Below are positions 26,165 to 34,125 of a stretch of 64,000 nt of DNA, piece after piece. Within the stretch, counting starts at the first letter, position 1, and each line of letters starts with the position of its first letter. The notes beneath the pieces were generated by a model. It saw only the letters and a list, made by a program, of their open reading frames with translations, had not been told where the DNA came from and made no database searches. Source of the stretch: Elusimicrobiota bacterium (GTDB lineage: Bacteria > Elusimicrobiota > Elusimicrobia > UBA1565 > UBA9628); contig JAUYSH010000017.1 of NCBI GenBank assembly GCA_030696455.1, positions 1 to 64,000 of the forward strand, read 5' to 3'. Made by a program: the position numbers and the translations under genes.

Positions 26165-27919
26165 ATGGCCACCGTCCAGACGATCAGGCGGCATATGATG
26201 ACCCGCGAGGAGTTCTCGCTCCGGCTCGGCGAAGGGCGCTCTCTTTTCGCCGCGGGGGACGAAGCGTTGCTGCGCCGCCTGCCGAAGGGGGATTGGGTCG
26301 GCGGCACCAGTTCCTATTTCACCACGGAAACGGGAGGTCTCCACACGCGCGACCGGATCTGCGGGGCGGAGACTCCCGGGTTTGCGACCGCCATTGAGAC
26401 CAAGGTCTACGACGCCGGCTCCATCGCGAGCGTCTATTCGGACGTCCCTGACAACGGGTACAGCCTCATCGTCATTCCGGGCGCGAGCCGTACCTTGCGG
26501 GCCTTCGCGCTCGGAGCCCCCCGCTACGAGAACTTCGCCTGCCGGCCCCTGCTTGGATGGGTCTCCGGGGTGGAACTCTCCGACGTGGGGAAAATATCGC
26601 CGAAGGTCTTCGACGGCCGGACCGGCCGGGCCTATGACGACGCCGCGGTCGTCCTGCATGTGTCCCTGCCGAAGTCCAAGATAGCCGAGGTCGGGATCAT
26701 CAACATCTTCGAGCCCGGCGACGGCGAGGTCCTGACCTTCACGACCGACGGCTTTTCGGCCAAGGCGGTCCTGGTCGACGGCAAGAGAACCCCGTTCGTC
26801 CGGTACCTGAAGGAACGGAGCCTCGACACGCGGCTTCCTCTGGTCGCCGATTACAACGGCGTAATGGTGAACACCTCGTTTCAGAGCGTCGACGCGGCGG
26901 CTCAGACGGTCGGATTCTACGCCCCGGTCTTCCGGGGGGTGCGCTATCGCCATGCCCGCCCCATCGGGGACTATATCGAGGCATTCTCGTCGCAGTTGCC
27001 GCAAGCCCTCGAACCCGGCGTCGCATTTTCGTGCAACTGCATCCTGAACTACCTCCACGCGGGCCTGGAGGGCCGCCGCGCGGCCGGCTTCACGGGCCCG
27101 GCGACGTTCGGCGAAATCGCCTACCAACTGCTCAACCAGACGCTCGTCTACTTGAGGATCGCGGACGCCAACCTCTCCGAGCGGCTGCGCGGGGAGAACG
27201 CCTTGCGCAAGCGGTTCCACTCCCTCGAAACCGCGACGCAGGAGCTCGAGGCGTTCAACTCCATGGTGTCCCACGACCTGCGCGCCCCGCTTCGACACAT
27301 GCGGGAGTTCTCCAGGATGCTGCAGAAGTCCCCGGCCGCGTCGCTCGACGCGCAATCCCGGGACTACGCGGGGCGGATCATCGCCGCCGCCGACAAGATG
27401 ACGGGCCTGCTCGACGGGTTGTCGACGTTCGCGTACGCCGGGCGCGCGGAGCTGCGGCGTGAGCCTGTCGACCTGGGCGAGCTCGCCCGCGAGGTGCGAG
27501 AGGAGCTGCTCGCGGATTGCGGGGACCGGGCGATCGTCTGGGACGCGGCGTCTCTGCCGGTCGTCCAGGGCGACCGGGTCCTCCTGCGACAAGTGTTGGT
27601 CAACCTGCTCTCCAACGCGATCAAATACACGCGAGACCGTCCCAAGGCGCGCATCGAAATCCGCGCGCGACGCGACCACGTCGAGACGATCGTGTCCGTG
27701 CGCGACAACGGCATCGGCTTCGATCCGGCGTCGGCTTCGCGGCTCTTCGAGCCGTTCCAGAGGCTGGAATCGGCCCGGGGGTTCTCCGGCAGCGGGATCG
27801 GTTTGGCCCTCGTGGCGCGCATCGTGGCACGGCACGGCGGCCGGGTCTGGGCCGAGGGGGCGTCCGGCGAGGGAGCGACGTTCTCCTTTTCGCTTCCGGA
27901 CTTCGAGCCGCCGCCGTAA
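26165..27919 (+). CDS. Soluble sensor histidine kinase with an uncharacterised N-terminal sensory domain
   Basis: 584 residues without membrane helices. The first ~310 residues form a single large domain that starts RSLFAAGDEALLRRLPKGDWVGGTSSYF and contains LIVIPGASRTLRAFALG and the Cys pair CNCILNY. It resembles a family of stand-alone uncharacterised proteins, but I cannot name a ligand. A short coiled coil leads to HisKA with phospho-acceptor His370 in MVSHDLRAPLRHM. An HATPase with NLLSNAIKYT, DNGIGFD and GSGIGLALVARI ends the protein. The kinase part resembles phytochrome-type kinases. No receiver domain or response regulator gene is nearby. Confidence 0.85.
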   Translation: MATVQTIRRHMMTREEFSLRLGEGRSLFAAGDEALLRRLPKGDWVGGTSSYFTTETGGLHTRDRICGAETPGFATAIETKVYDAGSIASVYSDVPDNGYSLIVIPGASRTLRAFALGAPRYENFACRPLLGWVSGVELSDVGKISPKVFDGRTGRAYDDAAVVLHVSLPKSKIAEVGIINIFEPGDGEVLTFTTDGFSAKAVLVDGKRTPFVRYLKERSLDTRLPLVADYNGVMVNTSFQSVDAAAQTVGFYAPVFRGVRYRHARPIGDYIEAFSSQLPQALEPGVAFSCNCILNYLHAGLEGRRAAGFTGPATFGEIAYQLLNQTLVYLRIADANLSERLRGENALRKRFHSLETATQELEAFNSMVSHDLRAPLRHMREFSRMLQKSPAASLDAQSRDYAGRIIAAADKMTGLLDGLSTFAYAGRAELRREPVDLGELAREVREELLADCGDRAIVWDAASLPVVQGDRVLLRQVLVNLLSNAIKYTRDRPKARIEIRARRDHVETIVSVRDNGIGFDPASASRLFEPFQRLESARGFSGSGIGLALVARIVARHGGRVWAEGASGEGATFSFSLPDFEPPP

Positions 27920-27953
27920 GCCGGGTCCGGGCCCGAATGGTATCATGAGGGCA

Positions 27954-29978
27954 ATGGTTCGGACCTGGTTTCGACGCGCTGTTCTGGCCGCGGCGGCGGC
28001 GGCGTTCGCCGGCGGGGCCGTCGTCGGCGCGATGACCTTGTCGGGCTGGTGGCGCTACCATCAGCTGGAGCGCTCCATCGTCGAGAAAATGGACGCGTAC
28101 TATCTCAACCTGACCGTGCCCGGCCGCGAGGAATACCTGCTGGCCGAGGACGAGGCCTTCGTCGTCCCCTACATGGCCTCCCAGCTGTCGGTCGCGGCCG
28201 CGCCGACGCGCATCCTCGACGCGAAGGACCGCCTCATCGCCGAGTTCTCCGTCGAGAAGGGCCAGTACGTGCGCTCCCCCGACGAGCTGCCCGCGTTCCT
28301 CAAGAAGGCGCTCGTCGCCAGCGAGGACGGTCATTTCTACGAGCACGCCGGCGTCGACTGGAAGGCGACGGCGCGCGCCGTCTTCGTGACCCTCACCGGC
28401 CTGCGGCGCAGCCAGGGCGGCTCGACCTTGACCCAGCAGCTCGCCAAGCAGATGTTCACCACGCGCAAGCGCACCGTCGGCCGCAAGATCTTCGAGTATT
28501 TCTGCGTCAGGAAGCTCGAGGAGAAGTTCACGAAGGATCAGATCCTCATGATGTACCTCAACTTCGCCTACTTCGGCCACGGCGCCTTCGGCGTGGAGTC
28601 CGCGTCGCGCTACTACTTCGACAAGCCGACCTCGGCCCTGGACGTCGGCGAGGCCGCGGTCATCGTCGGCATCATCCCGAGCCCGAACAAGTATTCCCCG
28701 CTCGACGCCCCCGAGCTCGCGCGCGCCCGCCAGCGCACCGTGCTCAAGCGCATGGCCCGAAACGGCTTCATCCCGGACTCCTCCGTCGAACGCATCGAGA
28801 AGGAATTCTGGGAGCGCTTCGAGCATCGCGCGCGCGTCCCCGAGGTCTCCTTCTGGCGCACGCGCGTCAACGAGGCGCCCTACGTCGTCGAGTTCGTGAG
28901 ACGCCAGATGCTGCGAGCCTATACGAAAGAGCGTCTCCTGCGCGGCGGCCTGACCATTCGCACCACCTTCGACCTCGACGCGCAAAGGGCCGCCCAGCGC
29001 GCCCTGCGCGAGCGCCTCGCCAAGGAGAACGACCCCGCCGCCAAGCCCGACGAGGACGGCGAGCCCGCCGGCAAGGTCGCGCCCGTCGAGGGCGCGCTCG
29101 CCGCCCTCGACCCCAAGGACGGCGCCCTGCTGGCGCTCGTCGGAGGCACCGGCTTCAGCTTTCAGAACCAGCTCGACCGCGCCACCGATGGGCGTCGTCT
29201 GATGGGCTCCGCGGTGAAGCCCTTCGTCTGGGCGGCGGCCTACGAGAGCGGTCGCTGGAGCGCGGAGAGCATGATGCTCGACGCCCCGGTCACCTACAAG
29301 ATCGGCGGCGGCCGGAAGTGGTCGCCGCACAACTACGGAAACAAGTATCACGGCGAGGTGCGCCTCGACGTCGCGCTCTGGAAGTCGCTCAACTCGGTGG
29401 CGATCAAGCTTCTCAAGGAAATCGACATCGACAAGGTTCTCGAGCTGCTGTCCGCGTCGTCCGGCGTTCCGCTTCAGCGCCTGCCCCGCAACCTGTCCCT
29501 GGCCCTGGGCACCGCCGATATCTCGCCCGTCCAGATGGCCGCGGCCTACGCCGTCTTCGCCAACGGCGGCCATGCCGTGCGCCCCTGGTGGCTGCGCGGC
29601 GTCGCCGACCGCGACGGCAAGATTATAAGCGAGGGCGATGCCCCCAAGTCCGAAGGCGCCGTCGTCATCTCATCGACGACCGCCCGCGCCGTGCTCGAAA
29701 CGATGCGCGGCGTTCTGGGCCCCGAAGGCAGCGCCTACGCCTCCGCCCGCCGCGGCGGCTTCAACGTCCCCGCCGCCGGCAAGACCGGCACCACCAACGA
29801 TTACCGCGACGCCTGGTTCGCCGGCGTCACCCCCGACCTCTCCGCCGCCGTCTGGATCGGCCACGACGACATGCGCCACGCCATGCCCCCCGGCAAGGCC
29901 GGCGGCGCCATCGCCGCCCCCGCCTGGATGGCCTTCGTCAAGGAAGTCTACCTGACCAAGCCCACCCGCGAATTTTGA
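27954..29978 (+). CDS. Class A penicillin-binding protein (PBP1A-like)
   Basis: A bifunctional peptidoglycan glycosyltransferase/DD-transpeptidase of the inner membrane. The N-terminal helix is AVLAAAAAAFAGGAVVGAM. The GT51 domain has ALVASEDGHFYEHAGVDW, GGSTLTQQLAKQM, KILEYF-like KIFEYFCVRKLEEKFTK and LNFAYFGHGAFGVE. The transpeptidase domain carries GSAVKPF (SxxK serine), SLNSVA (SxN) and AGKTGTTNDYRDAWF (KTG). All catalytic motifs are intact. ATG 27954 lies 7 bases after a TATCAT box; ATG 27945 is possible. The protein ends with KPTREF, and its stop abuts REP copy 1. Confidence 0.92.
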   Translation: MVRTWFRRAVLAAAAAAFAGGAVVGAMTLSGWWRYHQLERSIVEKMDAYYLNLTVPGREEYLLAEDEAFVVPYMASQLSVAAAPTRILDAKDRLIAEFSVEKGQYVRSPDELPAFLKKALVASEDGHFYEHAGVDWKATARAVFVTLTGLRRSQGGSTLTQQLAKQMFTTRKRTVGRKIFEYFCVRKLEEKFTKDQILMMYLNFAYFGHGAFGVESASRYYFDKPTSALDVGEAAVIVGIIPSPNKYSPLDAPELARARQRTVLKRMARNGFIPDSSVERIEKEFWERFEHRARVPEVSFWRTRVNEAPYVVEFVRRQMLRAYTKERLLRGGLTIRTTFDLDAQRAAQRALRERLAKENDPAAKPDEDGEPAGKVAPVEGALAALDPKDGALLALVGGTGFSFQNQLDRATDGRRLMGSAVKPFVWAAAYESGRWSAESMMLDAPVTYKIGGGRKWSPHNYGNKYHGEVRLDVALWKSLNSVAIKLLKEIDIDKVLELLSASSGVPLQRLPRNLSLALGTADISPVQMAAAYAVFANGGHAVRPWWLRGVADRDGKIISEGDAPKSEGAVVISSTTARAVLETMRGVLGPEGSAYASARRGGFNVPAAGKTGTTNDYRDAWFAGVTPDLSAAVWIGHDDMRHAMPPGKAGGAIAAPAWMAFVKEVYLTKPTREF

Positions 29979-30014
29979 GTGTCAGGCCTGCAAATTCGTT
30001 AAATTCGAGGCCTA
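29979..30014 (+). repeat. REP-like repeat, copy 1 (solo)
   Basis: The unit GTGTCAGGCCTGCAAATTCG is followed by TTAAATTCG at 29979-30007, then GAGGCCT. It fits exactly into the 33 bases between the stop codons of the PBP1A gene and the convergent lipoprotein gene. It differs from copy 2 and from copy 3 by one base each over the 29-base core. Confidence 0.85.
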
Positions 30015-30470
30015 ACGAGCGACGGGTTCGCGGCTGATCGCGAGAGAGGGGGAGCCGTTAGGGCCGTAGCGTAAGGTCACCTGCGCGATCGTGCCGTCTT
30101 CGATGCGCACGAAGCGCTCACGTGGCTGCTGGGCATCAGGCAGGCGTGTCCACTCGCCGATCGGCGGCAGAAGCCAATGCTCGAGGCGCACGGGCTGATT
30201 GCCGGCGGGGACCTTCAGGCGAACGCGCTTTTCCTGGGAACGCGGGCCGACGGCGGTCTTGCCTTCTTCTTTGCCGTCGACGAAGACCTTCGTGAAGGTC
30301 ACGCCCTCGTCGTCCGCGTTCGGCACGGTCTCGATGACGACGACCTCGAAATTGGGGTCCTTGACCTCCGGGGCGGCGACGGGCCGGGGAGGGGGCTCCG
30401 GGGATCCGGCCTGCCGCGGACCGACGCAGGCGGCGGCGAGCAGCGCGGCGAGCAGCACGAGCCGCTTCAT
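30012..30470 (-). CDS. Small lipoprotein of unknown function
   Basis: 152 residues with a lipoprotein signal peptide (MKRLVLLAALLAAAC, lipobox LAAAC) and a Pro-rich linker. The mature ~110-residue beta-rich domain includes FEVVVIETVPNADDEGVTFTKVFVDGKEEGK and VRLKVPAGNQPVRLEHWLLPP, suggestive of a PEGA-like or small Ig-like fold. The family is not recognised. It overlaps the upstream PPC-repeat gene by 4 bases, so the two are co-expressed surface or periplasmic lipoproteins. Its TAG stop is formed at the edge of REP copy 1. Confidence 0.7.
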   Translation of the reverse strand: MKRLVLLAALLAAACVGPRQAGSPEPPPRPVAAPEVKDPNFEVVVIETVPNADDEGVTFTKVFVDGKEEGKTAVGPRSQEKRVRLKVPAGNQPVRLEHWLLPPIGEWTRLPDAQQPRERFVRIEDGTIAQVTLRYGPNGSPSLAISREPVAR

Positions 30471-32038
30471 CGCACGCGCACGCGGAACGAGTATTTGTCG
30501 CGCACGTTGTTCTGAGCCGCATCGGCGGGCTTCAGGCGCACGGCGTAGGTGCCGCGATCGAGCTCGCGTTCGAGGGAGACGGGCTCGCCGGGCTTAGGCG
30601 CGGCGGCCGTCCCCAGCTCGGCGTATTCCTGATCGAACAAGGTCAGCGTGGGGGCGGCGTTGATCACACCGGTCAGCTCGAGTACCACGACGCCCTTCTG
30701 GTAGAGGTTGAACTCATACCAATCCTCGTCGCCTTTCGGCGCGAAGTAGCCGTCGACGGAGTCTCCGACCTTGAGCGACTGGACGGTGGCGCTCGAGTTG
30801 TTCGGCTCCCATTCGAGGCCGGGCTGATGCGGGATCAGCTTGCGGCCGAGCGTGTAGGACTGCCGGCTGTCGGATTTCTTGCCCGACCTTTCGGATACGA
30901 CGAGGTGATAATCGCCGCCGGTGAGGCCCCAGCCGGTCATGATCTCAGGCTGCTCCTTGCCCATGTTGTCGACGAGCGCGACCTCGTTGCCGAGCCCGTC
31001 GCGCAAGGACAGCGCCAGGTCCATCCCGGCCAGACCGGACAGCTCCGCGCGCAGGAGCTGCCTCGTTCCGCTGGCGACGGTGACCGTGTACCAGTCCTCG
31101 TCGGCGGCGGGGGCGATCGTGCCGGAGATCGAGTCGAGCTCGAGCGGCGTCGCGTCGGCGCGCTGGTCGTTGGGCTCGAACTCCGTGGCGCCCTGGTACG
31201 GCAGCAGCTCGGTCAGCAGGTCGTACGGCACGTCATGGTTGCCGGCGTTCTTATACTTCGAGCGCAGGCGCAGCTGGAACTTGCCCGGGCCGCGCACGCC
31301 GAAGCTGCGCAGGCTTTCGCCCTCGCCGATGCCGCCCGCGTCGAGCTCCTTGAGCTTGTAGCCGTTGGTGTCGTAGACCTCGAGGATGGCGTCGACCTTC
31401 GGGACCTCGCTCACGTCGATATTGAGCAGGAACAGGCCGGTCTTCGCGACGTCGATCGAATACCAGTCCTCTTCGGCCGCCTCCGGCTCGTCCGACAGAA
31501 GCTGCCTCGCCGGCCAATAATGCCCCTTCGCCAGCCCTCCCGCTTCGACGGTCTGCGCCGTCAGCGCGGTGTCGTTCGGCTCCCGCTCGCGCCCCGCGGC
31601 CGAGTCGAGCTTCGTCTGGAGCTCGTAAGCCTGAGCGGGATTGTTCGCCGTCTCGTTCTTGTTCGAAACGACGAGATAATAAGCGCCCCTCGAGACGCCG
31701 AGGTCGAGCATCTGCTCGTCGCCCCCGACCGTGGTCTCATCGACGCGCTTGAGCTCGCGGCGGTCCTTGTCGAAGAAGGAGAGGACGAAATCGACGTCCT
31801 TGATGCCGCCGATCTTCACGGCGATGGTCCCTGGGACCTCGGAGTCGACCCGGTACCAATCCTGGTCCTTCGGGCTCCCGATCGTCCCCGTCGCCTTCCC
31901 GCCCGCCTTGAGCGCGCCCGCCTGCTGATAAGAGTCGTTCGGCTCGACCTCTTTAGCCGGGCCGCAAGCGCACAGCCCGACCATCAGTGTCAGGCCTGCA
32001 AATTCGATAAATTCGCGGCGGGGAGGGAACTTTTTCAA
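30467..32038 (-). CDS. Lipoprotein with four PPC (pre-peptidase C-terminal) beta-sandwich domains
   Basis: Four tandem repeats each begin with an EPND/EPNN motif (EPNDSYQQA, EPNDTALTA, EPNDQRADA, EPNNSSATV) and continue with DEDWY or similar and a YHLVVS-type strand, the PPC domain pattern found in secreted proteins. The start is unclear because a REP repeat occupies the 5' end. An ATG at 31984 would give only MVGLCACG, too short for a signal peptide. A TTG at 32038 gives KKFPPRREFIEFAGLTLMVGLCACG, a plausible signal with twin arginine and lipobox LCAC, of which EFIEFAGLTL is encoded by the repeat. Function is probably binding or surface structure. Confidence 0.75.
   Translation of the reverse strand: MKKFPPRREFIEFAGLTLMVGLCACGPAKEVEPNDSYQQAGALKAGGKATGTIGSPKDQDWYRVDSEVPGTIAVKIGGIKDVDFVLSFFDKDRRELKRVDETTVGGDEQMLDLGVSRGAYYLVVSNKNETANNPAQAYELQTKLDSAAGREREPNDTALTAQTVEAGGLAKGHYWPARQLLSDEPEAAEEDWYSIDVAKTGLFLLNIDVSEVPKVDAILEVYDTNGYKLKELDAGGIGEGESLRSFGVRGPGKFQLRLRSKYKNAGNHDVPYDLLTELLPYQGATEFEPNDQRADATPLELDSISGTIAPAADEDWYTVTVASGTRQLLRAELSGLAGMDLALSLRDGLGNEVALVDNMGKEQPEIMTGWGLTGGDYHLVVSERSGKKSDSRQSYTLGRKLIPHQPGLEWEPNNSSATVQSLKVGDSVDGYFAPKGDEDWYEFNLYQKGVVVLELTGVINAAPTLTLFDQEYAELGTAAAPKPGEPVSLERELDRGTYAVRLKPADAAQNNVRDKYSFRVRVR
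31987..32015 (+). repeat. REP-like repeat, copy 2
   Basis: The 29-base core has one change (A for T at the position after AATTCG) relative to copy 1. It lies over the presumed signal-peptide coding region of the PPC lipoprotein gene on the minus strand and just upstream of the transposase start. Confidence 0.85.
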
Positions 32039-32050
32039 GGGGTCAATCGT

Positions 32051-32791
32051 ATGATTAGTATGGGAAGACGACCAAGAATACATTATCCCGGCGCCATCTA
32101 TCATGTGCTGGCGCGGGGCGTGAACGGGACGCGCATATTCCTCGATGACCAGGACTACCGTAAATTCCTGGAGGCGCTGAATCGAATAGCGAAAGATGCC
32201 GGCATGGTTATTTACGCCTATTGCCTGATGCCGAATCACTTTCATTTGGCGGTCAAGGTGGGCACCGTCCCCCTTGGCGCGATCATGCACAGGATACTCA
32301 CGGGCCACGCGCATACTTTCAATCAGCGCTATGACCGGGAGGGGCACCTTTTCCAAGGCCGCCATAGAGCTTATTTGTGCCTAGACGACCGGTATTTTCT
32401 GCGGCTCATTCGCTATATACAGATGAACCCGGTTCGAGCGGAGCTCGTGAGCAGGCCCGAGGATTGGCCCTGGTCGAGCCGCACGCCTGTTGAGCTTCCC
32501 GACATGGAAACCGACTCTTTTGATCCATGGCCTAAGGAAATCATTGCGCCGAACTTGGCGCGGTCTGATAATCAGCGGCAGGAAACACTCGATGAAATCG
32601 GCCGGGAAATATGCGGGACAACTGGTGTCGGCTTGGATGAGCTGCGCTCGCGTTCGAAGCGGAGGAGCTTTGTCGGCGCCCGCATCCTTTTCGCGAAAAA
32701 GGGGGTTGCGCGCGGCCACCGCCTCGGGGCGATCGCTGCCTGGCTTGGCAGCAAAACGGAATCGGTGTCGTATTATCTGCGGCGAATTTAA
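32051..32791 (+). CDS. REP-associated tyrosine transposase (RAYT, Y1/HUH family)
   Basis: The Y1 transposase fold is clear: GRRPRIHYPGAIYHVLARG, FLEALNRIAKDAG, YAYCLMPNHFHLAVK (HxH metal site), GHLFQGRHRAYL and YIQMNPVRAELV near the catalytic tyrosine. The C-terminal ~70 residues form a helical, DnaA-like DNA-binding region (FVGARILFAKKGVARGHRLGAIAAWLG). Such proteins bind and cut REP hairpins as single strands. At 246 residues the gene is intact. Its TAA stop is inside REP copy 3. A second in-frame ATG is at 32060. Confidence 0.9.
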   Translation: MISMGRRPRIHYPGAIYHVLARGVNGTRIFLDDQDYRKFLEALNRIAKDAGMVIYAYCLMPNHFHLAVKVGTVPLGAIMHRILTGHAHTFNQRYDREGHLFQGRHRAYLCLDDRYFLRLIRYIQMNPVRAELVSRPEDWPWSSRTPVELPDMETDSFDPWPKEIIAPNLARSDNQRQETLDEIGREICGTTGVGLDELRSRSKRRSFVGARILFAKKGVARGHRLGAIAAWLGSKTESVSYYLRRI

Positions 32792-32811
32792 CGAATTTGA
32801 AGGCCTGACAC
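32783..32811 (-). repeat. REP-like repeat, copy 3 (inverted)
   Basis: On the minus strand it reads as the 29-base core with T in place of G after AGGCCT. It contains the transposase stop codon on the plus strand and encodes the last seven residues (VSGLQIR) and stop of argH on the minus strand. Confidence 0.85.
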
Positions 32812-34125
32812 CAATCCCGTCCATTTCTTCTCCAAATTTCCCCGGGTCGAGGTCGACCAGCGGGAATCCTTGAGGTTCTGCGTCCGCAGTGCCTTCCAGT
32901 CGGGCTTGCCGGGGGCGCCGAGGTGGGAGGGCATGGGCGGATCGGCGACCACTCGAGGCTTGGCGGCGCGGGCGCGGGAAGCGACCTCGCGGTAGGCGGT
33001 GCGGAAGGGGACGCCGTCGCGGACGAGGGCGATGGCTTCGTGGGTGGCGAGGAGGTCGGAGGTGACGGCGGCGGCGCAGGCGGTCTCGTTGACCTTGAGG
33101 GATTCGGGCAGGCGGGCGGCGATCTCGAGCATCTGGCCCATCGTGTCGAGCGCGGCGAACAGAGGCCCCTTGGTCAGTTGGTAGTCGCGGTGGTAGCCCG
33201 AGGGGAGCTGGCCGATCATGAGGACCTGGTTGAGCCAGCCGGGAAACAGCGCCGCGCGGGCACGGGTGAGCTCGACGACGTCGGGGTTCTTCTTCTGGGG
33301 CATGATGCTCGAGCCGGTCGTGAACGAATCGGAGAGCTTGAGGAAGCCGAACTCGGCGGTGCAGTACAGGGACAGGTCCCATGCCAGGACGCCGAGGTCG
33401 CGGGCCACGAGGCACAAGGACGAGAGCACGGCGGCCTCCAGGCGCGGGCGGCTCGACTGGACGCGCAGGGTGTTGCGCTGCACGCGCGAGAAGCCGAGCA
33501 GCTTGGCCGCGCGCTCGCGCGGGAGCGGGAGCATGACACCGTAGCCGGCGGCCGAGCCGAGGGGGCAGGCGTCGGCCTCGTCGAAGGCGAAGCGCAGGGC
33601 GCGGCGGGCCTCGAGGAGGGCTTCGACATGGGAAGCCGCCCAGTGGCCGATCGTGGTCGGCATCGCGCGCTGCAGGTGAGAGTAGCCGGGGATCGGGCGC
33701 TTGTCCCACTTCGCGCCGAACGCGGCCCAGGCGGCGGCGGCGGCGCCGGCCGCGGCGTCGAGTTTGAGGAGCCGGTCCTTCAGATACAGACGCAGGTTGA
33801 CCTGAACCTGGTCGTTGCGCGAGCGTCCGGCGTGGACCTTGGCCCCGATCTCGCCGAGCTTCGTGGTCAGCGCCTGCTCGACGGCGGTATGGATGTCCTC
33901 CTGCTCCCGGGTGATCTTGACGGCCTTGAGCCCGCACAGGACCTTGCGGATGCGCGCGTGCTCGGCCTTCGTGAGCACCCCGATGGAGACGAGCCCGGAG
34001 GCGTGCGCCAGGCTGCCGTAGACTTCGTAGGGAAGGAGGCGCGCGTCGAGCTCGGGGTCGGCGCCGACGGTGTAGGCTTCGACGGCACTGTCGAGATCGG
34101 TCTTGGTCTGCCAGAGCTTTTTCAT
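32788..34125 (-). CDS. argH: Argininosuccinate lyase
   Basis: It splits argininosuccinate to arginine and fumarate, the last step of arginine synthesis. The fumarase/aspartase superfamily signature GSSIMPQKKNPDVVEL is intact, as are HAGRSRNDQVQVNLRLYLKD and the catalytic PGYSHLQRAMPTT region. It is the last gene of the arginine operon and overlaps argE by 4 bases. The extreme C-terminus VSGLQIR and the TAA stop come from REP copy 3, so the native tail has been replaced; catalytic parts lie far from it, and the enzyme is likely active. Confidence 0.95.
   Translation of the reverse strand: MKKLWQTKTDLDSAVEAYTVGADPELDARLLPYEVYGSLAHASGLVSIGVLTKAEHARIRKVLCGLKAVKITREQEDIHTAVEQALTTKLGEIGAKVHAGRSRNDQVQVNLRLYLKDRLLKLDAAAGAAAAAWAAFGAKWDKRPIPGYSHLQRAMPTTIGHWAASHVEALLEARRALRFAFDEADACPLGSAAGYGVMLPLPRERAAKLLGFSRVQRNTLRVQSSRPRLEAAVLSSLCLVARDLGVLAWDLSLYCTAEFGFLKLSDSFTTGSSIMPQKKNPDVVELTRARAALFPGWLNQVLMIGQLPSGYHRDYQLTKGPLFAALDTMGQMLEIAARLPESLKVNETACAAAVTSDLLATHEAIALVRDGVPFRTAYREVASRARAAKPRVVADPPMPSHLGAPGKPDWKALRTQNLKDSRWSTSTRGNLEKKWTGLVSGLQIR

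Follow-up and report, generated by a model that had tools for sequence, protein, structure and literature searches.

How can the sequence of a dispersed repeat change while the transposase, the ends of its element, and the scattered copies stay matched to each other? This question, open since the description of the orthoswitch, is raised by a locus in a 64,000-nucleotide stretch of DNA (hereafter the window) from an Elusimicrobiota bacterium (assembly GCA_030696455.1, contig JAUYSH010000017.1, positions 1 to 64,000), in which a 28-base unit (TGTCAGGCCTKCAAATTCGWTAAATTCG) occurs three times in and around a Y1 transposase gene. The initial annotation read the locus as a complete small REP (repetitive extragenic palindromic) system with its RAYT (REP-associated tyrosine transposase). 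We lean towards another description, namely a TIRtron whose ends combine a shared core with a private two-box tag, which has lasting docking sites in the genome, and whose tags are replaced in both arms at once.

Three repeat copies at the window locus

The unit is located at 29980-30007 (+), 31988-32015 (+), and 32783-32810 (−), and is preceded by a conserved AG. The second and third copies each differ from the first by one base and none of 100 shuffled sequences held any match, in agreement with the three near-identical copies reported initially. With its leading AG, the first, solo copy spans 29978-30007 (+; AGTGTCAGGCCTGCAAATTCGTTAAATTCG). The two other copies are the left (31986-32015, +; core and two-box tag) and right (32783-32812, −) terminal inverted repeats (TIRs) of an element, with 30-base arms and two mismatches, and they flank, as annotated, a Y1 transposase gene (32060-32791, +; Y1_Tnp, E 5e-10).

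The locus was compared between the source genome (G000), its sister (G005), and six relatives (G006 and G013 to G017). All three positions are also occupied in G005, G016, G017, and G006, and that of the solo copy in G015 as well; the flanks of the transposase are 82-94% identical pairwise in the five genomes that hold all three. The sister carries CTCGCAAATTCGTTGAATTC at all three positions, G016 carries CACGCAAATTCGTTGAATTC with a GGGTC core three times, its solo copy having an internal duplication, and G017 carries CCTAACAATTCGACGAATTC three times, with two changes in one copy. In a permutation test on these five genomes (G013, G014, and G015 were left out, the 8-base internal duplication was removed from the G016 solo, and the second copy of the tandem solo of G006 was used), copies within a genome differed by a mean of 1.6 bases against 4.52 when copies were paired at random across genomes, and 2 of 14,400 permutations gave a value as low. 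These results show that the three window copies mostly change in concert between species.

A transposase and its private tags

The unit is not confined to the locus. As the initial annotation had proposed to check, we counted it in its own genome (4.01 Mb, 147 contigs) and found 11 copies with at most three mismatches, against none for the reversed control. The 11 are made up of the element's own pair, three other pairs placed head to head, and three lone copies including the window solo. The genome encodes five intact transposases of this type, the four others being 48-49% identical to that of the window, and a sixth copy that is decayed or more distant, and the supposed single complete system is thus joined by four intact paralogues, the tag families of the five being separate. 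Each of the five has its own TIR of about 26-32 bases, which starts with GGTGYCAGGC (AGTGTCAGGC at one end of the window element) and then becomes copy-specific; the two arms of one paralogue are identical or differ by one to three bases over the reported length. The leader between the left TIR and the window transposase (32016-32059, +; CAACTTTTT...TCGTATGATAGGT) resembles by eye those of the paralogues.

In the four other intact paralogues (L013 to L016), the transposase has a C-terminal tail (...ESYAKYDMPDTI and similar) that is itself encoded by the right TIR, so that a change of tag alters the tail. Many genomes of the genus also have one copy of a more remote transposase (L017 on contig C109 in the source genome, and weaker relatives), whose open frame has about 300 residues, and a search for a TIR around L017 found none.

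Searched for head-to-head pairs of the core, the genome yielded 19 short palindromes and the control none. Their tags are those of different paralogues or close variants, and for one tag, CCTACCGGTATTTGCG, no matching transposase was found in the genome. Within the family, 18 of 44 genomes contain such palindromes, as do, under a slightly stricter pattern, 14 of 294 genomes drawn from the phylum, all controls being empty. From 100 of 119 core places, 88 loci were read and gave 32 distinct short palindromes, which is a lower bound. Arms of one family within the source genome are on average 88-98% identical and the loops between them are barely more alike than shuffled ones (family D: 0.52 vs. 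0.48). We take these palindromes to be old and inherited, with a likeness of their arms that is maintained within the genome.

The private tag consists of two boxes about 9 bp apart. Among 26 different arms, bases matched in 51% of cases at a distance of 9 and in 41% at 8, compared to 28% after shuffling (0 of 2,000 shuffles for each distance). A weaker periodicity was observed at 7 (5/1,000) and 8 (13/1,000) bases in 16 TIRs from other lineages. A TIR scoring at least 18 was found in 51 of 80 relatives, the scores of 240 shuffles peaking at 12, and these 51 have GGGTCA-like (23) or GGGGAC-like (22) cores among others.

The window transposase has 243 residues, and its best match among named organisms, at 67% identity, is a protein of Elusimicrobia bacterium NC_groundwater_611, which is that of G006. 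H60, H62, and Y119 are invariant in 52 relatives, Y119 being the putative catalytic tyrosine. The REP transposase model NF047646 matched with an E-value of 9e-22 and 77.5 bits, against a cut-off of 80. The predicted structure (mean pLDDT 86.9) is made of two parts. Residues 1-148, the HUH domain, resemble the REP transposase 4er8 (Z 17.1, 2.6 Å over 141 residues), and residues 175-243 form a head resembling DNA-bound domain IV of DnaA (1j1v, Z 11.0, 1.1 Å over 69 residues; 3pvp, Z 11.1, 1.0 Å over 69 residues). At the level of profiles, the window protein reached an E-value of only 0.12 for Bac_DnaA_C, and the best of the five paralogues reached 0.0061, with 0.00095 for HTH_23 and 0.0011 for HTH_28. 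The corresponding domain of DnaA reads 9-bp boxes, and a DnaA-like head and tag boxes spaced by about 9 bp therefore make a natural pair, although a fold alone shows no function. The head probably reads the private tag and the HUH domain probably acts at the shared core.

Head and tag also diverge together. Ends were readable for 34 of the 57 transposase rows found, and 23 of these provided pairs for the analysis of nonsynonymous (dN) and synonymous (dS) divergence. Across 30 pairs, which are non-independent and carry no correction for relatedness, tag differences correlated with the dN of the head (Spearman 0.73), less strongly with the dN of the catalytic part (0.57), and not with its dS (0.23, p 0.23). 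At the window locus, the identity between G005 and G017 is 82% in the catalytic part and 41% in the head, with different tags, and that between G006 and G017 is 68% and 60%, respectively, with nearly the same tag. With this covariation of head and tag, the transposase may act on its own TIR.

Taken together, a Y1 (HUH) gene framed by near-perfect long TIRs and accompanied by non-autonomous palindromes fits the TIRtron, or TIRYT, kind named by Di Nocera et al. (2013, PMC3733652). As in that paper, a RAYT-like Y1 gene lies inside long TIRs and not REPs, TIR copies occur elsewhere as singles and dimers, and one genome (Koribacter in that paper) can hold different TIRs for its different transposases. 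The present system differs from the TIRtrons described there by its apparently distinct core in the window (GGTGYCAGGC instead of GGGGWSAS), the many tag families per genome, the replaced tags at shared sites, and its occurrence in Elusimicrobiota. The GGGGWSAS motif is given as common to some TIRs and not as a requirement (PMC3733652); the window sequence GGTGTCAG is one base off, and the G016 orthologue has GGGGTCAG.

The transposase resembles subclass 2.1 of TnpAREP (RAYT group 1), in which an HUH-Y1 domain is followed by a C-terminal helix-turn-helix, DnaA_C-like ones included, and which contains 20 of 26 TIRYT examples (PMC6006769); the assignment is made from the C-terminal domain and not from a tree. 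That paper questions whether the TIR is recognised by the C-terminal domain, whereas head and tag diverge together here. The element shares with IS200/IS605 insertion sequences (IS608, ISDra2) the Y1 HUH fold (2a6m, 2xma, and others), but membership in that family was rejected, since the element has long TIRs in place of subterminal hairpins (PMC6006769) and an extra DnaA-like head.

With respect to REPs, the initial annotation held in part: the transposase is of the RAYT type and goes with mobile repeats, but the repeats are not REPs. Classical REP units carry a GTAG or CGTC tag (PMC3733652), and neither tetranucleotide was found at the end of the unit. Single units, for which a check for hairpins had been suggested, gave no stable fold (−0.6 and −0.1 kcal/mol, z −0.13 and 0.59; −5.7 kcal/mol, z −1.5, for the window solo with its flanks), and since it does not fold, the single unit is no REP. 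A family-C pair, by comparison, forms one long hairpin (−29.2 kcal/mol, z −11.4). Such palindromes resemble REPINs in being inverted doublets with conserved ends, a variable spacer, one hairpin, and presumed movement in trans (Bertels and Rainey 2011, PMC3116915), and differ from them in that the palindrome ends are the TIRs of a transposase element. The palindrome is therefore no REPIN, its unit not being a REP, but works like one.

Tag differences at shared sites

The palindromes away from the window were compared with their counterparts in other species. Both flanks of 15 of the 32 palindromes were found in G005 stretches, partly on contigs chosen for their G005 palindromes. The tag is the same at five sites, a variant at three, and unrelated at three, and four sites have no such element. 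All five unchanged sites belong to family D, and the tag of the D transposase is also kept in four species. Variants are present in both arms at sites 4 and 5 (family A) and 13 (family C), and unrelated tags in both arms at sites 7, 10, and 30. Against G006, where five sites were compared that had been chosen for their palindrome in that genome, the tag is a variant at sites 7 and 16 and unrelated at sites 14, 20, and 22. Further comparisons gave one variant (L279 vs. L024) and two unchanged tags (L265 and L269 of G005). Of 27 sister loci, 21 had matches in this comparison; for L256, L258, L262, L267, L272, L275, L276, and L278, the G000 side was empty, partial, or different, or the alignment failed, and the two of these eight that were used are L256 (empty) and L278 (as site 20). 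Shared sites thus persist across species and, where the tags differ, both arms differ.

If the tree of the window locus, which places G000 outside (G006,(G005,G016)) with a support of 91, is also the species tree, the direction of two replacements is known: at site 22, G000 and G005 have a family D tag and G006 another one, and at site 7, G000 and G006 have a family B tag and G005 an A-like one. The G005 palindrome at site 7 (L295) is a hybrid that combines two end types, each of its arms joining a core GGTGCCTGA to a tag of the G005 A family.

The comparison with sister genomes, which the initial annotation had called for, also revealed two empty sites, one in G000 and one in G005, in both cases for palindromes of sister families, and movement is therefore shown. 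Site 0 is cleanly empty in G005, and site 28 is without a palindrome. Of the two empty sites, one looks clean and one may hold a 5-bp repeat (AATGA) outside the 7-base flanks; insertion flanks are A/T-rich, with T favoured and G absent at position −1. With these sites and the 11 copies, the absence elsewhere and the immobility that had been named as grounds for abandoning a mobile repeat were not what was found.

We tentatively propose that the transposase family rewrites the tags in place, in both arms, at lasting docking sites throughout the genome, the copies following the tags that resident transposase heads are able to read. The head would bind the two boxes of the tag and the HUH domain would cut one strand at the shared core. 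The cut core of the resident palindrome would then pair through ten bases with another element carrying the active tag, and the strand would be extended across the donor palindrome before being rejoined at the far, opposite core. Such an event would change both arms and keep the flanks and the copy number. A passage in PMC8266576 describes the 3'-OH left by such enzymes as able to prime replication. In-place exchange of this kind is plausible rather than proven.

Several observations weigh against this proposal. At the window locus, the G006 transposase has CCTAAC ends, but its solo copy has a G016-like tag. The sample is small and partly selected, and four of the 15 sites have no such element in G005, two of them holding other repeats as a hot spot would. 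The edges of the elements do not line up at site 7 in G005 and, on one side only, at site 22 in G006. In a partial Mantel test on 34 proteins, the head (0.28) was close to the catalytic domain (0.22), with no covariation confined to the head. In transposase group E, the tag of G015 is unchanged though the head has diverged (dN 0.26-0.30), and the C-like transposase of G005 has another core and a slightly different tag compared to the dispersed C copies. Finally, although the loops of one site resemble each other between two species more than randomly paired loops do (2/20,000), their retention at switched sites alone was not significant (1,172/20,000). Loop retention was for this reason rejected as a proof of in-place editing, and new insertions may have replaced the copies at these sites.

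The main rival explanation builds on this last point. It supposes independent insertions at hot spots, only the narrow gap behind a stop codon being a place where insertions survive, and coincidence in the same gap by chance. The strong bias to the few bases behind stops in short gaps, the A/T-rich flanks suggesting a target preference, and the other repeats at sites 3 and 8 in G005 agree with it, as do the loops not significantly kept at switched sites. Chance insertion would not be expected, however, to produce boundaries that coincide within about 2 nt on both sides, as observed at sites 10, 14, and 20, variant switches that keep the family and, in two cases (site 13, L024), the loop as well, or the concert of the three window positions. 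We therefore regard hot spots as a rather unlikely explanation, though one to be taken seriously. The other repeats at sites 3 and 8 (L300 and L304) read AACCACCAAGACGCC... and AACCACTAAGACACC... and are not palindromes of this kind.

Concert at the window could alternatively be the footprint of an imported segment, homologous recombination with another species having replaced the transposase together with its ends. The dS of the catalytic part of the window transposase is 0.56-1.74, whereas three neighbouring genes, those of PBP1A, the small lipoprotein, and the lyase, gave 0.22-0.82, and catalytic and head parts have different nearest partners. In groups D and B, whose tags are unchanged or almost so, the transposase dS is 0.40-0.77, and in group E it is 0.49 for one pair and above 2 for the two pairs with G015, the tag being unchanged. 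The excess over the neighbours indicates that the gene body at the window locus, too, has seemingly been replaced piecewise, and the import of alleles may account for some of what is seen at the transposase locus. As a general explanation, import is unlikely: the solo copy lies about 2 kb away, behind two lipoprotein genes of ordinary divergence, and dispersed sites on other contigs share the switched tags.

Mutation and selection without exchange between sites would have a change in one arm copied to the other by hairpin-templated repair and kept if it matched a changed head. The arms do pair in a strong hairpin, and this route could have produced the small switches that alter one to three bases in both arms and leave the loop as it was (site 13, L024), as well as the variant at site 7 against G006. 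We nevertheless consider this mechanism improbable as the overall cause, because it leaves unexplained both the unrelated tags found in both arms (sites 7, 10, and 30; sites 14, 20, and 22) and the same changes at several dispersed sites and the solo copy. A classical REP-RAYT system, in spite of the matches to NF047646 and 4er8 and the dispersed inverted pairs, is very improbable, and was rejected, because single units are neither self-palindromic nor folding, lack GTAG and CGTC, and belong to a long TIR that frames the gene.

In-place rewriting by the transposase, if true, would mean that dispersed repeats evolve in concert under the action of a transposase, and would provide the orthoswitch with a mechanism, about which, according to the original report, one can only speculate (Nunvar et al. 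2013, PMC3686654). The orthoswitch resembles our observations in that orthologous transposase genes have different framing repeats in related strains; it concerns classical REPs beside RAYT genes, while here a solo copy 2 kb away and dispersed shared sites are also involved (PMC3686654). TIRtrons with private TIRs (PMC3733652) and the orthoswitch for classical REPs (PMC3686654) are thus already known. Within the literature searched, we regard as new the in-step tag differences at shared dispersed sites, the combination of a two-box tag and a DnaA-domain-IV-like head, and the lineage. The search returned nothing related on concerted evolution of repetitive extragenic palindromic repeats and, from 2014 on, no title among the matches listed that concerned replaced orthologous repeats of REPINs or RAYTs. 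The system is a tractable case: each genome has several tag families, the sites are alignable between species, family D serves as a control that has not switched, and the predicted DNA-reading head is separate. The DnaA-like heads, each with two-box sites of its own, moreover form a natural collection that might allow a recognition code to be deduced.

Gene ends and neighbouring genes

Placement at gene ends is the rule in this genome. The 32 palindromes lie in 7 convergent, 19 tandem, and 4 divergent gaps, with 2 unassigned, genes being called by a crude rule of length and GC content at third codon positions. The median distance to the facing stop codon is 4 bp, and 25 of the 30 palindromes with a flanking gene assignable on both sides lie within 12 bp of a stop, compared to 13.0 expected from random placement in the same gaps. 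In tandem gaps, 17 of 19 palindromes are nearer to the stop than to the next start, with one reverse and one equal case (p 0.00014).

At the window locus itself, the claim that each copy touches a gene end to the base was borne out only in part. The solo copy lies, as described, between the stops of convergent genes: with its leading AG it begins at 29978, inside the stop codon (29976-29978) of a PBP1A-like gene (27459-29978, +; a mechanically called frame whose name is that of the initial annotation), and it ends 4 bases before the stop (30012-30014, −) of a small lipoprotein gene (30012-30470, −). The third copy includes the stops of the transposase (32789-32791) and of the lyase frame (32788-32790) and thus agrees with the claim. 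The lyase gene (32788-34125, −), which would by its sequence encode an argininosuccinate lyase, ends in the right TIR. Orthologues of the PBP1A-like, small lipoprotein, and lyase genes were found. The second copy, by contrast, coincides with no 3' gene end.

In G013 and G014, the block from lipoprotein to transposase has the opposite orientation with respect to PBP1A; in G013, the same holds with respect to the lyase. Since the two outer copies are mutually inverted, a flip of the roughly 2.8 kb between them would account for the presence of a copy at each gene end, and because G014 groups with G017, the flip of the block (29978-32812; L214) may have occurred more than once. A fresh insertion of the solo copy was rejected, as its position is occupied in related species and the copy looks like one end of the inverted block.

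The second copy lies within the frame of a second, large lipoprotein gene (30467-32038, −), which crosses the left TIR and for which the TTG start at 32038 is a guess. From this putative start, the left TIR and leader (31984-32038) are read in frame as a likely signal peptide, with ...FAGLTLMVGLCACG in the source genome and GLTL or a close form in most genomes of the genus that were read. This use of the TIR may be another cause of the persistence of the element at the locus. In other genera of the family, the large lipoprotein begins with an ordinary-looking signal peptide.

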